In this document: piece after piece, positions 10,613 through 44,108 of the stretch | Position numbering within the stretch: the first letter of the stretch is position 1 | Layout: each line of letters starts with the position of its first letter | From: Sulfuricurvum sp. | GTDB taxonomy: Bacteria; Campylobacterota; Campylobacteria; Campylobacterales; Sulfurimonadaceae | Length of the DNA stretch: 44,902 nucleotides | Assembly: GCF_028681615.1 (NCBI RefSeq) | Contig: NZ_JAQUHV010000016.1 | Location: 1-44,902 of the forward strand | Direction: 5' to 3' | The notes under the pieces: model-generated | The model's input: only the letters and a program-made list of their open reading frames with translations | Databases searched by the model: none | What the model was told of the DNA's origin: nothing | Program-made: the position numbers and the translations under genes

Positions 10613-10635
10613 TGTCATCCTCCAGCGGGATGACA
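10613..10635 (+). terminator. hairpin after the MFS gene
   Basis: TGTCATCC (10613-10620) pairs perfectly with GGATGACA (10628-10635) around a 7-base loop, ten bases after the MFS stop. Only TTATCT follows, so it is a weak intrinsic terminator or a repeat hairpin. It marks the left border of the three-gene motor cassette. Confidence 0.5.
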
Positions 10636-10678
10636 TTATCTCCAATCCTTTTCCTCCCTCTTTCAACACATCAAAGGA

Positions 10679-10684
10679 TATAAT
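10679..10684 (+). promoter_or_regulatory. -10 box for the MotA/ZorA-like cassette
   Basis: A perfect TATAAT lies 26 bases before the ATG at 10711; CGGAG at 10699-10703 is the Shine-Dalgarno. There is no recognisable -35, as is common in Campylobacterota. The three downstream genes are close-packed and probably share this promoter. Confidence 0.6.
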
Positions 10685-10710: not shown

Positions 10711-11847
10711 ATGATCAATAATATGGCCTATTTCGGAGTCGGTTTAATTACATTGATGTTTATCATTTTCGTGATGAACCGAAAAAATAAATCCATTCAA
10801 GAATTAGCTCCAAGTATTTTAATCACCACCGGTATTTTTTTTACATTCGTAGGGATCGCTATCGGATTAATCCATTTCAATGCGGATAATGTAGATAAGA
10901 GTTTACCCACACTGCTAAACGGGATAAAAACTGCATTTTGGGCATCTGCCACAGGTGTTTTGTTTGCTTTGATAATCAAACTTCTGGATATTTTCGATTT
11001 AACGCAGCACAATGATTCCGCCCAGATTGAGGGAATGAGTATCGATGATATCGTCACCTATCAGGCCAAACAAACCGAAGTGCTGGTGGAGATACTCCAA
11101 AGTATCAAAAATATGCACACCTCGATCACCGCTCAGGATGAATCTTCCCTTGTGAGCCAAATCACATTATTGAGAAATGAATCAAACCAACAAAGCAACG
11201 CATTGCGCCAAGAATTTCGGAATTTTGCTGAAACCATGGCGGAAAACAATTCAAAAGTATTTATCGAAGCACTCAAGGATGTTATCAAAGATTTCAACGA
11301 CAAAATCACTGAACAGTTTGGGGATAACTTTAAACAGCTGAATCAAGCGGTCGAAAAAACCGTCATCTGGCAGGAAAACTACAGAAATCAAATGACCCAA
11401 TCCATCGAGACAATGACCCTCATAACAGCTATGTTGGAATCTCAAGCCCATGATTACAGTGTAGTCGTTTCCAACAGTGCCGAATTCGAAGGGCATGTAT
11501 CGGCGATGGCGCGTTCACTGGAAGAGATAACGTTTCAGAGAGAACATCTCCAAAGCCTTATTCAATCCCTCGTGAACTTTTTGGAGTCCGCATCGGATTC
11601 TCTCCCGCTGATCGGACAAAAAGTTGACGATATGACGGAACGTTTGGTCAAAGGGATGAATGAAGCTACCGAAGAAGTTCAAAAACAAGTCACTCTTCTC
11701 GATAATGAGCTGGAAATTGCTCTTAAAAGATCATTGGAAGGGTTGGGTCAGCAATTAGCCTCTCTCTCAAACAAATTTGTACAGGACTACACGCCTCTGA
11801 CCGATAAATTGCGAGAAGTGGTCGCGTTGGCTTCCAAACAACGATGA
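10711..11847 (+). CDS. MotA/TolQ/ExbB-family channel protein with long cytoplasmic tail (ZorA-like)
   Basis: Putative stator channel subunit of an ion-driven motor. Of 378 residues, about 3-22, 33-55 and 75-96 are membrane helices. The second reads SILITTGIFFTFVGIAIGL and the third AFWASATGVLFALII, with the small and Thr residues that line MotA/TolQ-type pores. The last 280 residues are a soluble, mostly helical tail with coiled-coil heptads. Flagellar MotA has four helices and a cytoplasmic loop; three helices plus a long C-terminal tail is the ZorA arrangement of the Zorya anti-phage system. The following MotB/ZorB-like gene supports this. It could instead be a TolQ-like motor of unknown use. 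Confidence 0.75.
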   Translation: MINNMAYFGVGLITLMFIIFVMNRKNKSIQELAPSILITTGIFFTFVGIAIGLIHFNADNVDKSLPTLLNGIKTAFWASATGVLFALIIKLLDIFDLTQHNDSAQIEGMSIDDIVTYQAKQTEVLVEILQSIKNMHTSITAQDESSLVSQITLLRNESNQQSNALRQEFRNFAETMAENNSKVFIEALKDVIKDFNDKITEQFGDNFKQLNQAVEKTVIWQENYRNQMTQSIETMTLITAMLESQAHDYSVVVSNSAEFEGHVSAMARSLEEITFQREHLQSLIQSLVNFLESASDSLPLIGQKVDDMTERLVKGMNEATEEVQKQVTLLDNELEIALKRSLEGLGQQLASLSNKFVQDYTPLTDKLREVVALASKQR

Positions 11848-11860
11848 TCGGGTTTACAGT

Positions 11861-12583
11861 ATGAACAATACCCTGCTACCGCGAAAAAAACACCACAGCA
11901 AAGAAGATTACTGGATCAGTTTAAGCGATATGATGACCTCGCTGATGATGCTCTTTTTGCTGATCTCCGTTATCTATATGATTAAGGTTCAAGACAGTGT
12001 TAAAGTTCCCCAAATCTATAAAGAGACAACCCAAGGGCTTAATCATGCCCTCAAAAAAGAGTTTGATCAAGACCTAAACAAATGGGGTGCTGTCATCGAT
12101 AAAGATTTAACCGTCCGCTTTCAACAGCCTGATATACTGTTTGCTACCGGGTCATCTGTTCTGACACCAAGATTTAAAGAGATTTTGGATGAATTTTTCA
12201 CCCGCTATTTGAAAATCATGATGTCCAAACAATTTATCAATAATATCGAAGAGATTCGGATTGAGGGATATACATCCTCTATTTGGGAGGGAGAAAGTGA
12301 TCGTGAAAAAGCCTATTTTAAAAACATGACTCTTTCCCAAGAACGAACGAGAGCTACACTAGAATACATCATGACCTCCGATAAAATCAATCTGAGCGAT
12401 GATCAAAAAGAGTGGCTGATGAAATATTTTAGCGCTATCGGGTTTTCTTCAGGTCATCCTCTAAGCAGCAGCGGAAGATGCGTAATCGATGGGGAAAGTG
12501 AAGATTGTCGGCTATCTCAGAGGGTAGAGTTTCGAGTCCGCACCAACATTGAGCGCAAAGTCGCTGATATTGTAGAAAAATAA
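11861..12583 (+). CDS. MotB/OmpA-domain protein (ZorB-like)
   Basis: Putative peptidoglycan-anchored partner of the channel protein. It has 240 residues: a short basic cytoplasmic N-terminus, one membrane helix (about 19-40) opening with ISLSDMMTSLMMLFLL, and a periplasmic OmpA-like domain. Asp23 in SDMMTSL sits where MotB and ZorB carry the essential ion-binding Asp. The OmpA-like part has FATGSSVLTPRFKEIL, IRIEGYTSS, LSQERTRATLEYI and SQRVEFRVRT, matching the peptidoglycan-binding fold. It begins 13 bases after the channel gene and ends in a TAATG overlap with the third gene, so all three are coupled. Confidence 0.78.
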   Translation: MNNTLLPRKKHHSKEDYWISLSDMMTSLMMLFLLISVIYMIKVQDSVKVPQIYKETTQGLNHALKKEFDQDLNKWGAVIDKDLTVRFQQPDILFATGSSVLTPRFKEILDEFFTRYLKIMMSKQFINNIEEIRIEGYTSSIWEGESDREKAYFKNMTLSQERTRATLEYIMTSDKINLSDDQKEWLMKYFSAIGFSSGHPLSSSGRCVIDGESEDCRLSQRVEFRVRTNIERKVADIVEK

Positions 12584-13122
12584 TGAATCTCACCGATTTT
12601 TTGGAGTTTAAACCGCTTGAAAGTCTCCGAAGTGAAATGAAAGCGCCTTTGGTAAAACCAATCTTTATCCACTCTTTTCAAAATCCAATCATCACTCATA
12701 AAAGCGATAGACTAGAGCTCAAATCGCTCAATGAGCTGACAATACATCCCGATGGTACATTGCTGTACAACAACAGTCGGGTTCTTTTGTATATCGTCGA
12801 TTACAGTTTAACCAATATCTATGATAACCCAATTGTCTCTGAGTTTCATATCAGTTCATGTCCAACACTACAAGAGCTCATTACCAGAGGACGTCGGCTA
12901 AGATATTTTGTCACATCCGGAGACGATGAGCTATTTTTAGTTGATCAAATGTTTGAAAGTACCAATCAAATAACACTCGTCCAAAAACTAAGCGTTTGCA
13001 AACATTGTCTGGCATTTCTTAATTGGTCGCAATACGAGGATGTAGATGAGATTACTAAACAAAATATATTTAAAAGTTTTACCGTACTTTCATTTTTTGA
13101 AAAATATCCGAGAGAGCTTTAA
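12583..13122 (+). CDS. uncharacterised third component of the ZorAB-like cassette, His/Cys cluster
   Basis: A 179-residue soluble protein with no signal peptide or membrane helix. Its start overlaps the ZorB-like stop by one base. The core (about 65-150) holds RVLLYIVDYS, FHISSCPTLQELITRGRRLRYFVT and KLSVCKHCLAFLNW. His89, Cys93, Cys139 and Cys142 could form one zinc site. The pattern (YxV...FHxxxCxTL...GRxxRYxVT...VCKxCLxxLN) reminds me of uncharacterised proteins that in some genomes continue into a C-terminal HNH nuclease; this one stops after a short helix and has no HNH. Type II Zorya uses an HNH protein, ZorE, as third component, so this may be a sensor-like part without the nuclease. 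Function unproven. Confidence 0.7.
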   Translation: MNLTDFLEFKPLESLRSEMKAPLVKPIFIHSFQNPIITHKSDRLELKSLNELTIHPDGTLLYNNSRVLLYIVDYSLTNIYDNPIVSEFHISSCPTLQELITRGRRLRYFVTSGDDELFLVDQMFESTNQITLVQKLSVCKHCLAFLNWSQYEDVDEITKQNIFKSFTVLSFFEKYPREL

Positions 13123-34408: not shown

Positions 34409-35517
34409 CCTTTGGCTTCCTCTCCCACCTCGATTACAACATTTGGCTTTTCCGTCTGCCGGTCATGCAGGAGTTGGTGCGTCAAGGACATACAGTGTAT
34501 GCGATATGTCCAGCAGGAGAAATAAGCAACTCCTTTTGCGAACACGGGATTACCCATATCCCGTATAAAATAGAGCGTTCGAGTCTCAACCCGTTTAAAG
34601 AACTCAATGCGATCCGACATATCTATACTGCCATCACACCACTCAAACTTGATATTCTCCATACCTTTACAGCCAAACCCAATATTTACGGCACTATCGC
34701 AGGGAGATTCGCCCGCGTGCCTCGTATCATCAACCTTGTCGAAGGACTGGGAAGTTTTTATCTCGAAAACGATTTAAAAAGCCGCATTGTCCGCAATCTG
34801 ATTGAGCTGCTTTATCGTCAAACGTTTAAACTCGCCGATACCGTAATGTTTGTCAATCATGATGACCCGGATTATCTGATCTCTAAAAAAATTGTCTCAC
34901 CTGCTAAAGTTTTCATTATGAAAGGGGTAGGGATAGATACAAATAAATGGAGACCTTTATCTAAAGAGGATAAATGGATTCGAGTAACAATGGTTGCACG
35001 TGCTCTTAAACATAAAGGGGTTTTGGAATTTATTGAAGCTGCTACCATCCTAACAAAAAAATATCCCGAAGTTTCATTCCAATACGTTGGTTCTCCCGAT
35101 GAAGGAAATCGTTTTAGTGTCACAGAAACATTTATGAAAGAACAGACCGCCATACACTACCTCGGCCACCAAACCAATATTTGTCATATCCTAGCCCAAA
35201 GCGATATTTTTGTCCTCCCAAGCTATTATCGAGAGGGGCTCCCCAGAACATCTATGGAAGCTGCAAGTATGGGACTACCAATTGTCACTACCGATGTCGT
35301 CGGATGCCGAGAAACCGTGGATGATGGGGTTAACGGATTTCTAGTACCCCCACACAATATAAACGCATTGGCCAATGCAATCGAAAAACTCATTTCTAAC
35401 CCTGATTTGCGCTCTCAAATGGGACAGGCAGGAAGGGAAAAAGCCTTAAAAGAGTTCGATATCGCTACAATTGTCGACAAACATCTCGAAGTGTACGGAC
35501 TGCAGCGTGTACGTTAA
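34405..35517 (+). CDS. pglA: GT4 glycosyltransferase, PglA-like
   Basis: In C. jejuni PglA adds the first GalNAc (alpha-1,3) to undecaprenyl-diphosphate-linked bacillosamine. This 370-residue enzyme has PglA-like landmarks in order: GFLSHLDYNIWLFRLPVM, RSSLNPFKEL, LVEGLGSFYLENDLKSRIVR, VTMVARALKHKGVLEFIEAA, AIHYLGHQTNI and FVLPSYYREGLPRTSMEAASMG. Its position directly before pglC also matches. The donor could differ from UDP-GalNAc, so treat the sugar as inferred. Confidence 0.85.
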   Translation: MTFGFLSHLDYNIWLFRLPVMQELVRQGHTVYAICPAGEISNSFCEHGITHIPYKIERSSLNPFKELNAIRHIYTAITPLKLDILHTFTAKPNIYGTIAGRFARVPRIINLVEGLGSFYLENDLKSRIVRNLIELLYRQTFKLADTVMFVNHDDPDYLISKKIVSPAKVFIMKGVGIDTNKWRPLSKEDKWIRVTMVARALKHKGVLEFIEAATILTKKYPEVSFQYVGSPDEGNRFSVTETFMKEQTAIHYLGHQTNICHILAQSDIFVLPSYYREGLPRTSMEAASMGLPIVTTDVVGCRETVDDGVNGFLVPPHNINALANAIEKLISNPDLRSQMGQAGREKALKEFDIATIVDKHLEVYGLQRVR

Positions 35518-36121
35518 TCTGATCAAACCCTTACTGGATCGTTTCGGAGCATTGATTTTATTGATCCTCTTTTCGCCTTTCATCCTACTCGTCACACTCA
35601 TGATTGCCGTTCGCATGGGACGTCCCGTTGTTTTCGCCCAACGCCGTCCAGGATTGCATGGAAAGATTTTTACGATCTATAAATTTCGTACCATGACGGA
35701 TGAAAAAGATTCCCAAGGGAACCTTCTGCCGGATTCAGAGCGATTGAAGGGAATAGGTCGATTCATCCGAAATTTCAGTTTGGATGAGCTCCCCCAACTG
35801 CTCAATGTTCTCAAGGGTGAAATGAGTTTTATCGGACCACGCCCTCTCTTGCCGGAATATTTGCCGCTCTATACTCCGCAGCAGGCACGGAGACATGATG
35901 TCAAACCCGGCATTACCGGGTGGGCTCAAATAAACGGACGCAATGCGATCAGCTGGGAAGAAAAATTTCGTTATGATGTCGAATACGTCAATAATATATC
36001 GTTTGCGCTCGACTTTAAAATCTTTTATCGTACTTTTGCAAAGGTGTTTATCAAAGAAGGGATATCCCAAGCAGGAGAAGCAACCATGGAAAAGTTCACC
36101 GGGACTAAGGAAAAAAAATGA
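35507..36121 (+). CDS. pglC: phosphoglycosyl transferase, PglC-like
   Basis: Monotopic membrane enzyme that moves a phospho-sugar (bacillosamine-type in C. jejuni) from UDP to undecaprenyl phosphate, initiating the lipid-linked glycan. I start at GTG 35507, overlapping pglA by 11 bases: it yields MYVNLIKPLLDRFGALILLILFSP with a re-entrant membrane helix, and it places the catalytic Asp-Glu pair (SLDELPQLLN) at residues 93-94, the same numbers as C. jejuni PglC. FIGPRPLLPEYLPLY and RHDVKPGITGWAQINGRNAISW follow. It has 204 residues. Confidence 0.9.
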   Translation: MYVNLIKPLLDRFGALILLILFSPFILLVTLMIAVRMGRPVVFAQRRPGLHGKIFTIYKFRTMTDEKDSQGNLLPDSERLKGIGRFIRNFSLDELPQLLNVLKGEMSFIGPRPLLPEYLPLYTPQQARRHDVKPGITGWAQINGRNAISWEEKFRYDVEYVNNISFALDFKIFYRTFAKVFIKEGISQAGEATMEKFTGTKEKK

Positions 36122-37125
36122 AAATATCGTATTATCTTCCTTCCAATATCGAAGATAATCAGACCTTTGAAGCGCTGGGATGGCCCTCTAAAAAAATCTT
36201 TGCCAAAACCGGAATACGCCAACGGCATGTCAGTGCTCCGGATGAGACAGCTTTGGATTTGGCGGTCAAAGGATGTGAAAAGCTATTCGCCGACCATGCC
36301 ATCGACCGAACCACTATTGACTATATTCTCTACTGCACCCAAAGCCCCGATTTCGTCATCCCGGGCAATGCCGGAATTTTACAACACCGCTTGGGTTTGC
36401 AAAATGCTATCGGTGCTGTCGATATCAATCAAGGATGTACCGGATATGTCTATGCCCTCTCACTCGCAAAAGGGCTTTTGGCTACCCAACAGGCACACAC
36501 AATCTTGATCGTTACAACCGACACCTATACCAAATACATTCATCCGCTGGATCGCGCCAACCGCTCTATTTTCGGGGACGGCGCAAGTGCAACTCTCTTG
36601 GAACAAACCGATGTGGAGAACATCGGGCAGTTTATATTTGGTACCGACGGCAGCGGTGCACACAACATATGCGTCAAAACCAGCGGTTTGAAATACCCAA
36701 AAAGTCCCCAAACCTCCATCGAGCACCAAGACGATTCAGGCAATGTCCGCAGCGAAGACAACCTTTATATGAACGGATCGGAAGTCTTTTCCTTTACTCT
36801 CGAACATGTCCCCTCAGCTGTAACAGCCATACTGGCGAAACATAACCTGAGTATGGATGAGATTGAGCACTTCGTTTTCCATCAGGCAAACGGTTTTATG
36901 CTGACCCATTTGAGAGATAAAATCGGTATCCCCGAAGAAAAATTTTTAATCTGTATGGAAGATACCGGGAATACCGTCTCATCCACTATTCCCATCGTCC
37001 TTTCAGAGCTTATGCGAACCAAAACCGTTAAGGAAAATGATAGAGTGATGCTTGTATCATTTGGGGTCGGATATTCGTGGGCCGCCACCATTTTGACATA
37101 TAAAACTGCCGAGGATCAAAAATGA
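36118..37125 (+). CDS. 3-oxoacyl-ACP synthase III-like enzyme, cassette copy 1
   Basis: A 335-residue FabH-type ketosynthase that condenses an acyl-CoA starter with malonyl-ACP. The catalytic triad is complete: Cys107 in DINQGCTGYVYAL, His255 in FHQANGFML and Asn285 in TGNTVSSTIP. It overlaps pglC and the ACP gene by four bases each. It is not in a housekeeping fab cluster; the position inside the glycan locus, with its own ACP, points to a dedicated acyl group for sugar modification. A paralogue occurs at 38377. Starter and product are unknown; acetoacetyl-ACP is the simplest guess. Confidence 0.88.
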   Translation: MKISYYLPSNIEDNQTFEALGWPSKKIFAKTGIRQRHVSAPDETALDLAVKGCEKLFADHAIDRTTIDYILYCTQSPDFVIPGNAGILQHRLGLQNAIGAVDINQGCTGYVYALSLAKGLLATQQAHTILIVTTDTYTKYIHPLDRANRSIFGDGASATLLEQTDVENIGQFIFGTDGSGAHNICVKTSGLKYPKSPQTSIEHQDDSGNVRSEDNLYMNGSEVFSFTLEHVPSAVTAILAKHNLSMDEIEHFVFHQANGFMLTHLRDKIGIPEEKFLICMEDTGNTVSSTIPIVLSELMRTKTVKENDRVMLVSFGVGYSWAATILTYKTAEDQK

Positions 37126-37343
37126 CTAAACAAGATTTAATAACCGAGATTGAAGATATTCTCCAAGCAGATGAGGGGAGTTTAAATGAAACGACGGCAC
37201 TTGCCGGTCTTGAAGATTGGGACTCGTTGGCTTTTATCAGTATCATCGCTTTATTTGACAAAAAGCTCAGTAAAAAAGTACCGCTTGATGAACTCAAACA
37301 ATGCCAAAGTGTTGGAGATATCATAGCTCTATCCGGCATCTAA
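37122..37343 (+). CDS. dedicated acyl carrier protein
   Basis: A 73-residue carrier. Ser35 in LEDWDSLAFISII is the phosphopantetheine attachment site. It differs from housekeeping AcpP, which has a DSLDxVE motif, and resembles carriers of specialised pathways. It lies between a ketosynthase and the Rieske gene with coupling on the upstream side (ATGA) and two bases to the next gene. It presumably tethers the acyl intermediate shared by the cassette enzymes. Confidence 0.88.
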   Translation: MTKQDLITEIEDILQADEGSLNETTALAGLEDWDSLAFISIIALFDKKLSKKVPLDELKQCQSVGDIIALSGI

Positions 37344-37345
37344 GT

Positions 37346-38380
37346 ATGACATCCAGAGCGGATTATCATACACAATCAACGCATGATAAAGAGTGCGAAG
37401 CGCTCTTTGAACGCTTTTACCACTTTGGAGCGCACCGCTCTGAATTAAACGAACCAAACGATTTTCGACGTATTCAGGCTGGCGGACATGACATTGTTCT
37501 CTACAATGACAACGGAAACATCATTGCTTTTGAAAATAGCTGTCCGCACAGAGGCTGTTTGCTTATAACGGAAGAACATGGCTCCAAAGAGCTCGTATGC
37601 CCTTATCACGGTTGGCGTTTCGGAGAAGGCAAATGTATCGTTCCCAATCGAAAACTTTTTAATGAAGATGAGATCAACTCCGCTGCTCTGCGTACCTATG
37701 CGATCGAGCTGTGCGGAAATTTCATCTTTTTTTCACCGGCTCCTTCCGCGACACTGAGAGAACAGCTCGGTTCTTTTTGGGAACTGCTAGAAACCCTCTC
37801 CCACGATATTTCCCGTCTTATCGACGATAACGACGAGCCTTTTTCAGCCAATTGGAAAATTTCGCTCGAAAATGCCCTCGAAAACTATCACGTCTCTTCC
37901 GTTCATCCGACTTCGCTTGGGACACTGGAACCGACGGACGGAACAGTGACATTTGATCAAACCAATTCGCTATGGGAATCCCCGCTTGGAAATACAAAAG
38001 TGCATACCAAACTGTCAAAACTCCACACCCTTTTTGACAACAAATACCGCAACGAGTGCTATTTCAGCCTTTATCTTTTCCCTTTTTCCATGATTTCTTC
38101 AACGTTCGGGTACTCCTACGCTTTTCAGAATTTTTACCCAAAAACACCTACGGAAACGGCATTTTCCAGCCGTACCTATGCAACACAAACTGAGTACACT
38201 TCGTTCTTCGACAATGTGGCTCAGCTGAATCGCCAAATTTTTGCCGAAGACGCCCGGATTTGTCAACTGGTCCAGATGGGAACCGCTTTAAGCGCTCCGT
38301 ACATCTATAACCGCCAAGAAAAACGGATCCTTGCCTTTCACCGCCATTATGAAGCTCTCGTTAAAGAAGAACCCTTATGA
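37346..38380 (+). CDS. Rieske non-haem iron oxygenase, alpha-subunit type
   Basis: A 344-residue oxygenase. The Rieske [2Fe-2S] ligands are Cys66-x-His68 (SCPHRGC) and Cys85-x2-His88 (CPYHGW). The mononuclear iron ligands look intact: His182 and His187 in LENYHVSSVHP and probably Asp302 in FAEDARICQ, with Glu179 where naphthalene dioxygenase has its bridging Asp, as in choline-monooxygenase relatives. Start ATG 37346 follows the ACP stop by two bases. No reductase or ferredoxin is in the cassette, so electrons must come from elsewhere. It probably hydroxylates the ACP-bound acyl chain or the finished sugar; the substrate is unknown. O2 dependence fits the cbb3-equipped host. Confidence 0.87.
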   Translation: MTSRADYHTQSTHDKECEALFERFYHFGAHRSELNEPNDFRRIQAGGHDIVLYNDNGNIIAFENSCPHRGCLLITEEHGSKELVCPYHGWRFGEGKCIVPNRKLFNEDEINSAALRTYAIELCGNFIFFSPAPSATLREQLGSFWELLETLSHDISRLIDDNDEPFSANWKISLENALENYHVSSVHPTSLGTLEPTDGTVTFDQTNSLWESPLGNTKVHTKLSKLHTLFDNKYRNECYFSLYLFPFSMISSTFGYSYAFQNFYPKTPTETAFSSRTYATQTEYTSFFDNVAQLNRQIFAEDARICQLVQMGTALSAPYIYNRQEKRILAFHRHYEALVKEEPL

Positions 38381-39411
38381 AAATCACCTATACCCACGCT
38401 GCAATCAGCCGCATTGTGACCGTTATTCCTAACCAAAAAATAAACAATCATGATTTGCCGTTTGATGATAAAACGAAAAAGAAAATAATTAAAATGACAG
38501 GGGTTGAAACACGCCACGTTCTCGATGAAAAAACTTCTCTCTTGCCCTTGTATATTCAAGCAGCACAGGAAATTTTCAAGACCATTGATCCACAAAGCAT
38601 CGATGCTGTTATTGTAGTAAGTCAAACTCCCGAATATCGGCTTCCGACAACAGCAAACGTGCTGCACGGGTTGTTAGATCTCAAAAAAGATGCTTTGGCT
38701 TTTGATATCAATCAAGGATGTTCTGGATACATTTACGGTCTTTCTCAAGCGTTTGCCTTGCTCGAAACTGCCTCTGATATCAAACGGATCCTTTTGTTTG
38801 ACGGAGATGCGATTTCAAAAATCTCTGAACCGGAAAACAAATCAACCGCTTTTCTTTTCGGCGATGCTGCCAGCGTAACGCTATGTGAAAGAACGAATGA
38901 TTCTAAAAGCTATTTCGTACTTAAATCTGACGGACATGGATATACCAATCTTATCGTCCCTGATGGCGGAATCGCCTCACCCTTGTGTGCAAACTCGTAT
39001 GAAAAACAGAGTGATGAAACCGGCAATACTACCTCTGCATCAACCCTCTATATGAATGGAACCGAAATTTTCAATTTTACCGTCGAAGAAGTCCCCTCTC
39101 TCTTAGAAGAAGTTTATACACTGTCGAATCAAACTCCGGAAATGATCGATGTATTTTGCCTTCATCAGGCAAATCGCTTTATGCTTGATTTTTTAGCGGA
39201 TAAAATGGGAATTGCACATAAAACTCCGATCAATATTGATCGTTACGGCAACAGCTCTAGTGTCTCTATCCCCCTATTAATCTGCGATATGCCTGAAGTA
39301 TGTACTCGTTCACATGCTCTTTTAGCAGGCTTCGGCGTAGGATATTCCATGAGTGCCGCACTTCTTGATCTTTCAAACACACAAACTATGTTGAAAGGAT
39401 TTGAGGCATGA
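38377..39411 (+). CDS. 3-oxoacyl-ACP synthase III-like enzyme, cassette copy 2
   Basis: A 344-residue paralogue of the 36118 ketosynthase. The triad is complete: Cys115 in DINQGCSGYIYGL, His263 in LHQANRFML and Asn292 in YGNSSSVSIP. The two share DINQGC[ST]GY, LYMNG[ST]E[VI]F and HQAN.FML. It is coupled by ATGA on both sides (Rieske and SDR). Two active-looking KAS III enzymes suggest two condensation steps or a condensation plus an acyl transfer, since some KAS III relatives move acyl groups without decarboxylation. Confidence 0.87.
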   Translation: MKITYTHAAISRIVTVIPNQKINNHDLPFDDKTKKKIIKMTGVETRHVLDEKTSLLPLYIQAAQEIFKTIDPQSIDAVIVVSQTPEYRLPTTANVLHGLLDLKKDALAFDINQGCSGYIYGLSQAFALLETASDIKRILLFDGDAISKISEPENKSTAFLFGDAASVTLCERTNDSKSYFVLKSDGHGYTNLIVPDGGIASPLCANSYEKQSDETGNTTSASTLYMNGTEIFNFTVEEVPSLLEEVYTLSNQTPEMIDVFCLHQANRFMLDFLADKMGIAHKTPINIDRYGNSSSVSIPLLICDMPEVCTRSHALLAGFGVGYSMSAALLDLSNTQTMLKGFEA

Positions 39412-40166
39412 TTCAATTCAGTTCTGACGATATTTTTGTGGTTACCGGTGCCTCAAGCGGTCTTGGAAAAGCCATTGCCCTTAAAATTATCGCGCTTGGG
39501 GGCTCCGTCATCGCCGTTGCCCGAAATAGTGACAAACTCATTCAAGCACAAACCGAAGCCCTCCATCCGGAACATTTATGGATTGAACCGTTTGATTTGG
39601 CAGCCCAACTGGAAGAGATCCCCGATTTTATCAAACACTGTGCAAAAAAATACGGGAAATTAACCGGCCTTGTCCACTCTGCCGGAATCGGCGGTGTCAC
39701 TCCCCTCAAAGCACTCGATCTTTCCGACGCCAAATCGATGTTCGATATCAACTATTTCAGCGCCCTCATGCTGTCAAAAGGGTTCTGTGACAAACGGGTA
39801 TGTACCGCAAACGCGTCGATTATACTCCTCTCCTCTATCGCCTCCGTTCAGGGTAACAGCGGTTTAGGCAATTATTCTGCGACCAAAGGGGCAATCAACT
39901 CTCTGGTTCAATCGCTCGCCGTCGAAACCGCCAGACAAAACATCCGAGTCAATGCCATTTCACCCGGTTTTATCGTGACCGAAATCGTCCACCATGCGCC
40001 GGAAGTTTATAATGATGCGTTCTTTGCAAAAATCAAAGAAGAGTACCCTCTTGGAGAAGGTCATCCCGAGGATGTAGCATCGGCATGTGTCTTTTTACTG
40101 AGTGACAGTGCCCGATGGATAACAGGACAAAATATCATTATCGACGGAGGAAGAACATTATTATGA
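39408..40166 (+). CDS. short-chain dehydrogenase/reductase, FabG-like
   Basis: A 252-residue classical SDR. The NAD(P) loop is TGASSGLG (13-20), the active site is Ser142/143 with Tyr156 and Lys160 (NYSATKGA), and it ends ITGQNIIIDGG as in FabG. Most likely it reduces the 3-oxo group left by the ketosynthases to 3-hydroxyacyl-ACP; action on a sugar is the alternative. It overlaps the neighbouring genes by four bases on each side. Confidence 0.86.
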   Translation: MIQFSSDDIFVVTGASSGLGKAIALKIIALGGSVIAVARNSDKLIQAQTEALHPEHLWIEPFDLAAQLEEIPDFIKHCAKKYGKLTGLVHSAGIGGVTPLKALDLSDAKSMFDINYFSALMLSKGFCDKRVCTANASIILLSSIASVQGNSGLGNYSATKGAINSLVQSLAVETARQNIRVNAISPGFIVTEIVHHAPEVYNDAFFAKIKEEYPLGEGHPEDVASACVFLLSDSARWITGQNIIIDGGRTLL

Positions 40167-40795
40167 AAAAACGGCTTGCCCTCATCGGAGGTGGCGGATT
40201 CGCGAAAGAGATTATTGAAATCGCTCTTTTAAACGGTTTTGAAATTGCCGGTATCTTTGCCGAGCAAAACAACCTCTCGGCATATCCGTATTTGGGGTAT
40301 CTGGATGAATTGCTCTCAAAACGCGAGATGTATGACTATGTTCACATTGCGTTTGGTGGAATCAATCACGCCGGAATTGCCAACCGAATCAAAATAATCG
40401 ATTTTTTAGAAGAGCATGATATCCCCTCCGCTACCCTTGTGTCACCCTATGCGCGTATCAGTGTGGATGTTGAGATAGGCGAGGGGAGTTATGTCGCACA
40501 CAATGCCCTCATTTCATGTGAAGCCAAAATAGGTGCACATGTCATTATCAATACCGCGAGCCTGATCGGTCACGATGCGTACATCGGCAAAAACACTACC
40601 GTATCTCCGCAAGTTTTTATCGGCGGGGAGTGTATCATCGGAGAAAACTCTCTGATCGGCGTCGGGACTTTGATTAAACAAGGGTTGAGCGTTGGAGAAA
40701 ATTGCATTGTCGGAATGGGAACAATCGTTCAACGTTCGCTTCAAAGCAACATGATGATAGTGCACAATCATCCAAAACCGGTCGCACTACATTAA
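40163..40795 (+). CDS. PglD/NeuD-family hexapeptide acyltransferase
   Basis: A 210-residue left-handed beta-helix acyltransferase. N-terminal ALIGGGGFAKEIIEIA forms the small nucleotide-sugar-binding Rossmann part; from about 98 on, hexapeptide repeats (VDVEIGEGSYVAHNA..., YIGKNTTVSPQVFIGGE) build the beta-helix. His137 in TASLIGHDAYIG is the catalytic base position of PglD. The start is ATG 40163, overlapping the SDR stop. It is the only PglD candidate in the window, so it acylates the UDP-4-amino sugar either with acetyl-CoA or, as the cassette suggests, with the ACP-bound acyl group. Confidence 0.85.
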   Translation: MKKRLALIGGGGFAKEIIEIALLNGFEIAGIFAEQNNLSAYPYLGYLDELLSKREMYDYVHIAFGGINHAGIANRIKIIDFLEEHDIPSATLVSPYARISVDVEIGEGSYVAHNALISCEAKIGAHVIINTASLIGHDAYIGKNTTVSPQVFIGGECIIGENSLIGVGTLIKQGLSVGENCIVGMGTIVQRSLQSNMMIVHNHPKPVALH

Positions 40796-40802
40796 CGTTA
40801 TG

Positions 40803-40822
40803 GGTTCTAAAAGAACCTTTTT
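40803..40822 (+). terminator. intrinsic terminator after the acyl cassette
   Basis: GGTTCT-AAA-AGAACC (40803-40817) followed at once by five T (40818-40822), eight bases after the acyltransferase stop. A compact but textbook stem plus T-run. Confidence 0.7.
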
Positions 40823-40848
40823 GATACACTAAACGCTTTAATTATGAT
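40821..40848 (+). promoter_or_regulatory. promoter of pglB-pglE-pglF
   Basis: TTGATA (40821-40826), a 16-base spacer and TATGAT (40843-40848) make a good vegetative promoter; transcription would begin near 40855, 30 bases before the pglB start. It begins inside the T-run of the preceding terminator, so the oligosaccharyltransferase operon can be expressed independently. Confidence 0.55.
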
Positions 40849-40884
40849 CCCTAATACAAAACACACCAAAAAGGCAAGAAAGCC

Positions 40885-42996
40885 ATGAATTTTCTAAAGC
40901 TTCCCAATGAACACTCCGGAGTCAAACTAACCCTTTTCTTCATTATTGTCGCGTATCTCTTTTCTCTCTCCATGCGCTATATTTGGGTGGCTGATTTTCA
41001 GTCTGTTCCACAATTTCATTGGCATAACGAATTGATGATAAACACAAATGACGGATACTTTTTTGCCGAAGGGGCACGTGATATCTTACAAGGCTACCAT
41101 GAGCCAAACGACCTCTCACCGGTCAACGAGCCCCTCGCCCTTCTAACCGCATGGCTCTCCAAGATAGTCCCAGTAAGCTTTGAAACACTAATTCTCTATA
41201 TGCCTTCGTTTCTCGGTTCTTTAATTGTCATACCGATTATTTTGATCGGACGGACATTAGGACAAACGTCAATAGGCTTTATTGCAGCACTGATCGCAAG
41301 CATAACCAACAGCTATTACAACAGAACAATGACGGGGTATTACGATACCGATATGCTTACTATCGTATTACCGCTGTTTGCCGTGTACTTTATCATTTTT
41401 GCTATTATTCATCAACGTAACCGTTTTTTAATTCCTATCACCCTTGCCTTTGCGTTAAATCAATGGTGGTATCCGCAGAGTTATTCACTCAACAGTGCGA
41501 TTTTGGTTATGACTTTTATCTATGCCATCATCTTTGAACGAAAAAATCACTATTTCTATAAGATTGCACTCTTTATCATCATTGGTGTTTTATCCCTTCC
41601 AATTTGGGTCAAACTTGCAATTGCGATAGGAGTTTTTTCCTTTTTCCATTTTCGACCGGCACTCGATCAAAAATGGTTTTGGGTGTTATTCGGGGCAATT
41701 ATTGTCATCTATTTTGCGACAGGGGGGATTGACCCAATCTGGGCACAGCTAAAAGGGTATCTATTCCGTGAAACTGTCTCAAATGAAGCCGGTGGGCTTC
41801 ATTTTTACAACGTAGCCCAAACCGTCCGTGAAGCAGGAAATATCCCTTTTACAGTTTTTGCGGAACGGATCAGCGGACATACGGTCACGTTTCTTATTGC
41901 CTGTATCGGTTATGCTCTTGCCGTCTTTGCCTATCGTCCGCTCTTAATCACCCTTCCCCTTGTAGGGCTTGGATTTATCGCTATGTCGGCAGGACTACGT
42001 TTTACGATTTATGCCGTTGCACCGATAGCAATCGGATTCGCTTATTTTATCGTCCTCATTAGCCGCCCGATCGAAAAAGGATGGCTGAAATATATTGTCT
42101 TGTCCGTTTTTACCGCTGTTGCTCTCTATCCTAACTATTTACATATTAAAGAGTATAAGACTCCAACCGTGTTCACTGCCGGAGAGGTCTCTATTCTCGA
42201 ACAGCTCGGAAAAATTGCAGGACACGAAGACTATGTTGTCTCTTGGTGGGATTACGGCTATCCTATACGCTTTTACAGCGATGTCAAAACGCTCATAGAC
42301 GGTGGAAAACACAGTGGGGATGTCAATTATCCCGTAAGCTATATTCTAACCCAGCCTCAGCAAAATGCAGCCGCAATGGCACGATTAAGTGTTGAATATA
42401 CGGAACGCAGATTTGAAACCAATAACCCAGACGATATTACAAAAATGATGTTCAAAGCATATAAAGCCGATTCGGTTGACGATCTAATGGTCACTATTCA
42501 GCTCAATCCCGCTTCATTGCCGAAACCGACACGAAATATTTATTTCTATCTGCCACTGCGGATGATGGACATTTTTCCGACGGTAACACTCTTTAGTAAT
42601 CTGGATCTTAAAAATCCGAATGATCATCCTCAACAGCCTTTCTTCTATATGACTCAAGAGGCTAAAGATACTGGAAAAACCATTGATCTTGGAAGTGGGA
42701 TTTCCATCCTAAAAGAAAAAAACAGCCTAAAAATCGATAATCAGGAAGTACCGATCAAAGGCTTTTACCAAGTCGGTTACGACAAAGCTCAAAAACTTTC
42801 TGTCAATGAACAGCACTTTGCATCAGACGGTCTCAACGTTATCTTCATGGCAAGCTATGGACGGTTTTTAATCGTGGACGATTTTTATTTTAACTCTTCC
42901 TATATCCAAATGTTTGTTTTTGATCATTATGACCCAAAATTGTTTACGCCCGTCATTCTTGACCCGATGAGCAAAGTTTATAAATTGAAAGTATGA
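40885..42996 (+). CDS. pglB: bacterial oligosaccharyltransferase (STT3 family)
   Basis: Transfers the lipid-linked glycan en bloc to Asn in periplasmic proteins. It has 703 residues; C. jejuni PglB has 713. About 13 membrane helices are followed by a periplasmic domain. Catalytic residues fall at the same numbers as in C. lari PglB: Asp56 (NTNDGYFF), Asp154 and Asp156 (TGYYDTDM). The WWDYG sequon-binding motif is at 454-458. Arg329 in AERISG matches the Arg that gives C. jejuni PglB its preference for Asp/Glu at position -2, so the extended sequon D/E-x-N-x-S/T is predicted. It is coupled to pglE by ATGA. Confidence 0.96.
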   Translation: MNFLKLPNEHSGVKLTLFFIIVAYLFSLSMRYIWVADFQSVPQFHWHNELMINTNDGYFFAEGARDILQGYHEPNDLSPVNEPLALLTAWLSKIVPVSFETLILYMPSFLGSLIVIPIILIGRTLGQTSIGFIAALIASITNSYYNRTMTGYYDTDMLTIVLPLFAVYFIIFAIIHQRNRFLIPITLAFALNQWWYPQSYSLNSAILVMTFIYAIIFERKNHYFYKIALFIIIGVLSLPIWVKLAIAIGVFSFFHFRPALDQKWFWVLFGAIIVIYFATGGIDPIWAQLKGYLFRETVSNEAGGLHFYNVAQTVREAGNIPFTVFAERISGHTVTFLIACIGYALAVFAYRPLLITLPLVGLGFIAMSAGLRFTIYAVAPIAIGFAYFIVLISRPIEKGWLKYIVLSVFTAVALYPNYLHIKEYKTPTVFTAGEVSILEQLGKIAGHEDYVVSWWDYGYPIRFYSDVKTLIDGGKHSGDVNYPVSYILTQPQQNAAAMARLSVEYTERRFETNNPDDITKMMFKAYKADSVDDLMVTIQLNPASLPKPTRNIYFYLPLRMMDIFPTVTLFSNLDLKNPNDHPQQPFFYMTQEAKDTGKTIDLGSGISILKEKNSLKIDNQEVPIKGFYQVGYDKAQKLSVNEQHFASDGLNVIFMASYGRFLIVDDFYFNSSYIQMFVFDHYDPKLFTPVILDPMSKVYKLKV

Positions 42997-44108
42997 GCAT
43001 GCATACCCAACGCCTATTTCTTTCCCCTCCGCATATGAGCGGAAGAGAACAAACCTATATTGCCGAAGCGTTTGAGAGCAACTATATCGCACCGCTGGGG
43101 CCGATGGTTGAACGATTTGAGCAAAGTATCCGCGATCTCACCTCTACCCCGCATGCTCTCGCACTTAGCAGTGCTACAGCGGCACTGCATTTAGCTTTGC
43201 GCGTTCTGGGAATAGGTGCGGGAGATATCGTTTTAACCTCATCCTTTACATTTATCGGCGGGGTTGCACCGATTCTCTACCAAAATGCAACTCCGGTTTT
43301 TATCGACAGCAACACCGTGAGTTGGAACCTCGATCCCTCTCTTCTTGAAAAGGCCATCATCGAATCACCCGTAAAACCTAAAGCGCTCATCCTTGCCCAT
43401 CTCTACGGACAATGTGCCGATCTGGAAACAATCATTGCACTGTGCACCCATTATGACATTCCCATCATCGAAGATGCTGCCGAAAGCCTTGGAGCCACCT
43501 ACAATAATCAGCAAACCGGAACCTTTGGAACCTTCGGGGTCTACAGTTTTAACGGAAACAAAATACTCACGACCTCCGGGGGAGGAATGCTGATCTCTAA
43601 AAATAAAGCGCTCATCGACAAAGCCCGTTTTTATTCGACCCAAGCACGTGACGATGCACCCCATTATGAGCATACCGACTACGGGTACAATTATCGCATG
43701 AGTAATATTCTAGCCGCTATCGGAGTAGCGCAGATGGAAGTTTTGCAAGAGCGGATAGCAGCCAGACGACAGATTTTCGAGTGGTACCGCGAAGTGTTGA
43801 ACGATATCGAAGAGATAACCTTTATGCCGGAACTCTCACAGGCAAAAGGCAACCGGTGGCTGACCACACTCACGTTCGAGCACTCCGATCCGACCCGCAT
43901 CCGTCTTGCCCTCGAAGAAGAGAACATTGAAAGCCGTCCTCTTTGGAAACCGATGCACATGCAACCGCTTTTCAAAGAGGCTCTTTGTTTCCAAAACGGA
44001 ACATCCCAAAGCCTTTTTGAAAAAGGGCTGTGTCTCCCCAGCGGAACCCAGATGAATCGAAACGACGTCGATCGTGTCTGTAGTATTCTTAAAAAGGTCC
44101 TACGATGA
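42993..44108 (+). CDS. pglE: UDP-4-keto-sugar aminotransferase
   Basis: PLP aminotransferase of the DegT/DnrJ/EryC1 family, 371 residues. In the bacillosamine pathway it aminates the 4-keto sugar made by PglF. Lys190 in YSFNGNKILTTSGGGML is the PLP lysine; EDAAESLGA (160-168) contacts the cofactor and ALSSATAALHLAL binds phosphate. It overlaps pglB and pglF by ATGA. Its product, UDP-4-amino-4,6-dideoxy-GlcNAc, is the substrate for the acyltransferase at 40163. Confidence 0.93.
   Translation: MSMHTQRLFLSPPHMSGREQTYIAEAFESNYIAPLGPMVERFEQSIRDLTSTPHALALSSATAALHLALRVLGIGAGDIVLTSSFTFIGGVAPILYQNATPVFIDSNTVSWNLDPSLLEKAIIESPVKPKALILAHLYGQCADLETIIALCTHYDIPIIEDAAESLGATYNNQQTGTFGTFGVYSFNGNKILTTSGGGMLISKNKALIDKARFYSTQARDDAPHYEHTDYGYNYRMSNILAAIGVAQMEVLQERIAARRQIFEWYREVLNDIEEITFMPELSQAKGNRWLTTLTFEHSDPTRIRLALEEENIESRPLWKPMHMQPLFKEALCFQNGTSQSLFEKGLCLPSGTQMNRNDVDRVCSILKKVLR

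Follow-up and report, generated by a model that had tools for sequence, protein, structure and literature searches.

According to the current view, type II Zorya is a motor that recruits a nickase. In PMC11890865, Escherichia coli ZorE is reported to be brought to the membrane by ZorAB upon infection and to be a nickase that E. coli type II defence requires. A 2026 preprint (PMC13192584) names the N-terminal domain of ZorE DUF8245, finds an N-terminal residue of ZorE, His90, to be required, and describes ZorE activity as dependent on RecBCD-shaped DNA. The authors of the preprint retained only ZorE proteins "containing a recognisable endonuclease domain", a filter implying that ZorE proteins without such a domain were seen. 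The type II ZorAB structure 8VVI comes from Sulfuricurvum kujiense DSM 16994 (Mariano et al. 2025, PMC11890865), whose ZorAB is treated there as ordinary Zorya II, and the searched text of that paper holds no remark that the S. kujiense ZorE lacks a nuclease. No discussion of nuclease-less ZorE as a class was found in the literature text searched.

A type II Zorya cassette between an MFS gene and moeA

The stretch of DNA analysed here, the window, comprises 44,902 nucleotides from Sulfuricurvum sp. (contig NZ_JAQUHV010000016.1) and contains a zorA-zorB-zorE cassette of three collinear ORFs with the following features.

10679..10684, + strand: TATAAT, probable -10 element of the cassette (read from the sequence)
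about 10700, + strand: Shine-Dalgarno GGAG before zorA (read from the sequence)
10711..11847, + strand: zorA, type II, MotA/ExbB-like, about 3 TM helices and a cytoplasmic tail of about 280 aa, 378 aa (PADLOC, NCBIfam, 8VVI chain F)
11861..12583, + strand: zorB, type II, MotB plug with Asp23 and OmpA-like peptidoglycan-binding domain, 240 aa (PADLOC, Pfam, 8VVI chain A)
12583..13122, + strand: zorE cut to the N-terminal zinc (DUF8245-like) domain, HNH absent, 179 aa (PADLOC, C-terminus, AlphaFold2)
12583..12645, + strand: N-terminal motif conserved in ZorE, MKLxDFLxxxxLNxLRxxMGA, a candidate helix for docking to ZorAB or the membrane (matrix score, predicted structure)
12847..13008, + strand: zinc-site codons His89, Cys93, Cys139 and Cys142 of the short ZorE (alignment)

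The zorB stop shares its last base with the zorE start (position 12583), and moeA, which is convergent to the cassette, ends 5 bp beyond zorE. An earlier note made from the sequence had described these ORFs and the 5-bp distance to moeA, both of which were confirmed, as was the ion-binding Asp23 of the MotB-like protein, present in SLSDMMT. Its recognition of a ZorA/ZorB core was also right. ZorA matches PADLOC ZorA2 with an E value of 2.4e-139 and ZorB matches PADLOC ZorB2 with 1.6e-88; Pfam MotB_plug and OmpA both score above gathering in ZorB, and the two proteins are 88% and 89% identical to 8VVI chains F and A, respectively. NCBIfam agrees with the Zorya assignment, under its curated cut-offs (for instance ZorA2, E 2e-48, below that model's cut-off). 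A flagellar MotAB or Tol/Exb stator was ruled out, as the MotA_ExbB (E 0.02) and NCBIfam MotB (E 2e-5) matches are far weaker than those to the Zorya models. Neither zorC/zorD of type I nor zorF/zorG of type III lies beside zorAB, because the cassette is bounded by the MFS gene and moeA and its third gene is ZorE-like. Judged from these matches, the three genes are a type II Zorya cassette by gene family. ZorA2, ZorB2 and the ZorE N-terminal zinc domain are all present and the HNH nickase is absent, and by this missing effector domain the cassette lacks one defining feature of Zorya II. Codon 138 of the window zorB encodes Tyr where the motif RIEGHTS normally has His (84 His and 3 Tyr among 92 ZorB).

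The "own promoter" proposed in the earlier note is plausible in that TATAATACTCTTT (TATAAT) and the GGAG before zorA form an island conserved between the window genome and S. kujiense, and weak in that a sigma-70 consensus scan before zorA gives nothing above chance. The conservation with S. kujiense covers TATAATACTCTTT...AAACGGAGCAAAATT, and the DNA upstream has diverged. Similarly, the border hairpin it described (GTCATCC..GGATGAC, about 10613-10640) can be seen by eye and is not called by a terminator scan.

A ZorE protein ending before its HNH domain

The third protein has no Pfam family match, and the earlier note held that it matched no known Zorya component outright. This was wrong: PADLOC ZorE2 is matched with an E value of 3.9e-38 along positions 1-182 of the 282 in the profile, so that the gene is, on profile evidence, the N-terminal domain of ZorE. 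The suggestion of a new minimal Zorya-like type is thus half retained, the cassette being minimal, since the type II nuclease domain is missing, and not new by gene family. A new type with an unrelated third protein, for which the lack of a Pfam match might speak, is refuted by the clear ZorE profile matches and the zinc site held in common, and we give it virtually no credence. Automatic annotation masks the difference by labelling such loci as Zorya II with "HNH endonuclease". A second PADLOC ZorE2 profile with that label, PDLC00646, is itself short (162 positions), hence short forms or fragments were in its training set; it matches the window protein with an E value of only 1e-12.

Canonical Zorya II, as in E. 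coli and in its nearest example here (Sulfurovum L113, ZorB 74% identical), has the same zorA-zorB-zorE order, 5:2 motor family and ZorE zinc domain, whereas its ZorE continues into the HNH nickase. Full-length ZorE runs from FFxKYPxxL into the HNH domain (at residues 195-261 of 263 in Sulfurovum L113), and the window protein stops at ...FFEKYPREL, after 179 aa. No ZorE-type HNH was found elsewhere in the window genome, by family or by HNH query. A frameshift or misassembly behind the missing domain was rejected for the Sulfuricurvum cassette, in which the short zorE is separated from moeA by 5 bp in the window and about 35 bp in S. kujiense, with no HNH relic in either. It was also rejected for four further short forms introduced below (L120, L132, L141 and L144), where a six-frame check of the locus gave no HNH ORF. 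What is left of ZorE is precisely its N-terminal zinc domain; the HNH nickase is gone.

The His/Cys cluster that had been noticed in the third protein, H89-x3-C93 and C139-x2-C142, is a zinc site whose H/C/C/C ligands are invariant across 54 aligned ZorE and are retained in 7 of 7 nuclease-less proteins. His90 of the preprint corresponds to His89 of the window protein by motif only, as the residue numbering could not be aligned one to one. Most of the nuclease-less proteins have lost V109, G116 and N141, residues that are frequent in ZorE with HNH. An AlphaFold2 model of the short ZorE (mean pLDDT 88) gave no credible match in a fold comparison with the PDB; such a missing match is no proof of a new fold.

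The first 20 or so residues carry a second conserved element, MKLxDFLxxxxLNxLRxxMGA, found in 33 of 49 full-length ZorE. Scored with a matrix derived from those 33, the window N-terminus reaches 37.3 and that of the best unrelated ORF 6.7, and eight genes with the motif only score 13.7-28.6. The maximum among 1080 control ORFs was 27.5, and the top four control scores equal those of L156, L186, L150 and L187; we take these controls to be the motif-only genes themselves, the next control scoring 6.7. The motif is kept even where the zinc domain is also lost, as in a betaproteobacterial clade that retains only the first 25 or so residues of ZorE. The predicted structure, in which a helix at 10-18 is followed by a linker of low confidence and then a globular part, fits a candidate role as a tethered docking helix.

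Constraint on the short zorE was estimated between the window genome and S. kujiense, with dN/dS of 0.050 for zorA, 0.062 for zorB, 0.150 for zorE and, in four flanking genes, 0.042-0.065; cassette and flanking genes have similar synonymous divergence (dS about 1.0-2.1), which is near saturation and makes these values rough. Among the three genes, the short zorE is under the weakest constraint (65% identity versus 88%). The short zorE of Ferrovum has a pN/pS of 0.23, versus about 0.41 in two pairs of full-length zorE with HNH. These substitution patterns show the short zorE to be maintained by purifying selection, rather than in recent decay.

Occurrence in Sulfuricurvum and in related loci

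Of 41 Sulfuricurvum genomes, 3 encode a Zorya-type ZorB, the window genome among them. One of the other two (G044) has a ZorB with exactly the sequence of the 8VVI chain, for which reason we take it to be S. kujiense DSM 16994 or the same sequence; its cassette is that of the window and likewise lies between the MFS gene and moeA (ZorA 88%, ZorB 89% and short ZorE 65% identical), with a ZorE of 172 aa that ends in FFEKYPRHL and also lacks the HNH domain. The other (G051) has the cassette at another site, with ZorA, a ZorB interrupted by a contig break, and a ZorE without HNH that is about 162 aa long. The three copies group together in a ZorA tree (99/99), with HNH-bearing Sulfurovum outside (94/94), so that a single HNH loss within the genus is the simplest reading.

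The moeA gene is present in all 41 genomes searched, and the gap between the MFS gene and moeA is only 5-96 bp in most of them, supporting the "neat insertion" of the earlier note and supplying the empty site in relatives for which it had suggested looking. The gap holds the cassette in the window genome and S. kujiense, and other genes in a few genomes. The cassette is accessory, and the pattern resembles the turnover of defence genes at a hotspot of insertion; neither the flagellar or Tol/Exb match nor the core gene set that would have spoken against a Zorya reading was found. The same gap is an insertion hotspot in other relatives (L065/L097 of G067, L070, L086 and L099). The nearest relative, G067, has a leucyl/phenylalanyl-tRNA-transferase-like ORF there, and others have small membrane protein genes or an ORF6N-like gene, all named by eye.

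A first scan of genome contigs with ZorE alone found nothing; the 9-sequence ZorE alignment was too diverged as a query, and ZorB was therefore used as the anchor. The resulting survey of 80 loci from GTDB genomes, several of them metagenome-assembled, consists of the best matches to the window ZorB and is a biased sample. Most of these loci carry HNH; a fourth gene common to the loci was sought and not found. In 57 of the 80 the third gene is ZorE-N plus HNH; in 2 others it is split, and 1 has a diverged HNH form. ZorE-N stands alone in 4 (Sterolibacterium L120, Ferrovum L132 and L141, and the unclassified proteobacterium L144), only the N-motif remains in 8, all betaproteobacterial, and the gene is absent in 4; 3 loci are cut and 1 (L190) is unclear. 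The split genes (L157, L180) and L190, at a contig end, were left aside as likely frameshifts or cuts. In a quickly built ZorB tree, at least 4 changes on starred branches are required to explain the loci with ZorE-N only, and loss of the HNH domain appears recurrent, in at least four lineages and at the same domain boundary. Reduced forms are just as patchy in the Ferrovum family (2 of 32 genomes) and in the marine family (7 of 26).

The eight motif-only loci (L148, L150, L154, L156, L170, L184, L186 and L187) have a type II ZorAB and a third gene opening with the ZorE N-motif; they differ in that the zinc domain is gone too and a low-complexity tail takes its place. The group is one side of a branch beside Ferrovum in the ZorB tree (support 93 and 87). 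In the marine betaproteobacteria among them, the next gene encodes what we take to be a DUF502-like membrane protein, and is the same in L154, L156, L184 and L186, which are long enough to show it. L059 (genome G442) likewise has the ZorE N-domain after ZorB (PDLC00644, E 1e-27), with a DUF4145/HEPN-like C-terminus (weak, E 0.03) in place of HNH, a possible effector swap; this gene (L059:1012-1917, - strand), beside zorAB, consists of the N-domain, a coiled coil and the HEPN-like domain with an RNHIVH motif. ZorB-like genes of about 40% identity (L005-L031) were rejected as Zorya II, having a short ZorA-like partner and no zorE. Such genes occur in many genomes of other genera of the family (L005-L031, L035-L051), beside a ZorA-like gene of 65-314 aa, and form with it a separate small MotAB-like pair.

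How a nuclease-less ZorE may act

The reading we prefer, with a probability of roughly 45%, is an accessory Zorya II with a selected, nickase-less ZorE that the motor recruits as an adaptor on DNA. ZorA5B2 would sense envelope or peptidoglycan disturbance as phage DNA enters, as in canonical Zorya II, ion flow would rotate the cytoplasmic rod of ZorA, and the activated motor would bring the ZorE N-terminal module to the membrane via the conserved N-terminal helix. Without a nickase of its own, the module would occupy the incoming DNA and/or pass it on to a nuclease encoded elsewhere, either host RecBCD/AddAB or another defence system; no partner nuclease for the short ZorE was identified. Adaptor action is the most likely role by analogy with the published membrane recruitment of ZorE, the His90 requirement and the preference for RecBCD-shaped DNA. 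It is supported by the absence of HNH in three Sulfuricurvum, the selection on zorE, recurrent loss at one boundary, the zinc ligands kept in all seven short proteins, the persisting N-motif, and a patchy, site-specific presence like that of defence genes. Against it, E. coli needs the ZorE nickase, and a nuclease-less system may therefore not defend at all.

That the system is an inert, decaying remnant would account for the missing effector domain and for zorE being the least constrained gene. This is very unlikely, however, as the ORFs are intact across near-saturated synonymous divergence with a dN/dS of 0.15, the short zorE is constrained at least as strongly as HNH-bearing ZorE, and loss recurs at one boundary with the zinc site intact. 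Domestication as a motor-based envelope-stress sensor, in which the ZorE remnant signals to host functions, would agree with the stepwise reduction in the betaproteobacterial clade (HNH, then zinc domain, with the N-motif left) and the shared next gene, presumably for a DUF502-like protein, of several marine loci. A core function would be expected to be more uniform than the patchy presence in all three groups, and the Sulfuricurvum copies occupy two different sites, and many relatives retain an empty site; we regard this use as distinctly improbable. Alternatively, the motor itself may be the effector, with a phage-triggered opening of the ion path depolarising the infected cell and the ZorE N-domain only gating or coupling it. 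Strong conservation of ZorAB (dN/dS 0.05-0.06), an intact Asp23 and several loci in which ZorAB has only the N-motif or no ZorE are in its favour, and the model first proposed, as cited in PMC8565338, was a proton channel. However, ZorAB alone is reported to be insufficient for defence, and the E. coli data favour ZorE nicking as the effector step, so that this explanation, too, is unlikely, if worth keeping in mind.

More broadly, and quite tentatively, ZorAB may be a modular sensing platform with the ZorE N-helix and zinc domain as its coupling unit, and nuclease-less forms, evolved at least four times, may protect without a nickase through depolarisation, DNA occlusion or a host nuclease, in which case nicking would not be the essential output of Zorya II. 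A selected and repeatedly evolved nuclease-less form separates "motor plus adaptor" from "nuclease", provides a natural test of the motor's own contribution, and suggests that ZorAB can do something useful without its presumed nuclease weapon. Furthermore, the published type II ZorAB structure stems from such a nuclease-less system, bringing structure and effector question together in one organism.

Elsewhere in the window, positions 35471-44108 hold a PglB-type N-glycosylation cluster with a PglC-like sugar transferase, a PglD-like gene, STT3/PglB and a DegT aminotransferase; two KAS III-like synthases, a Rieske oxygenase and a short-chain dehydrogenase lie between its PglC- and PglD-like genes.
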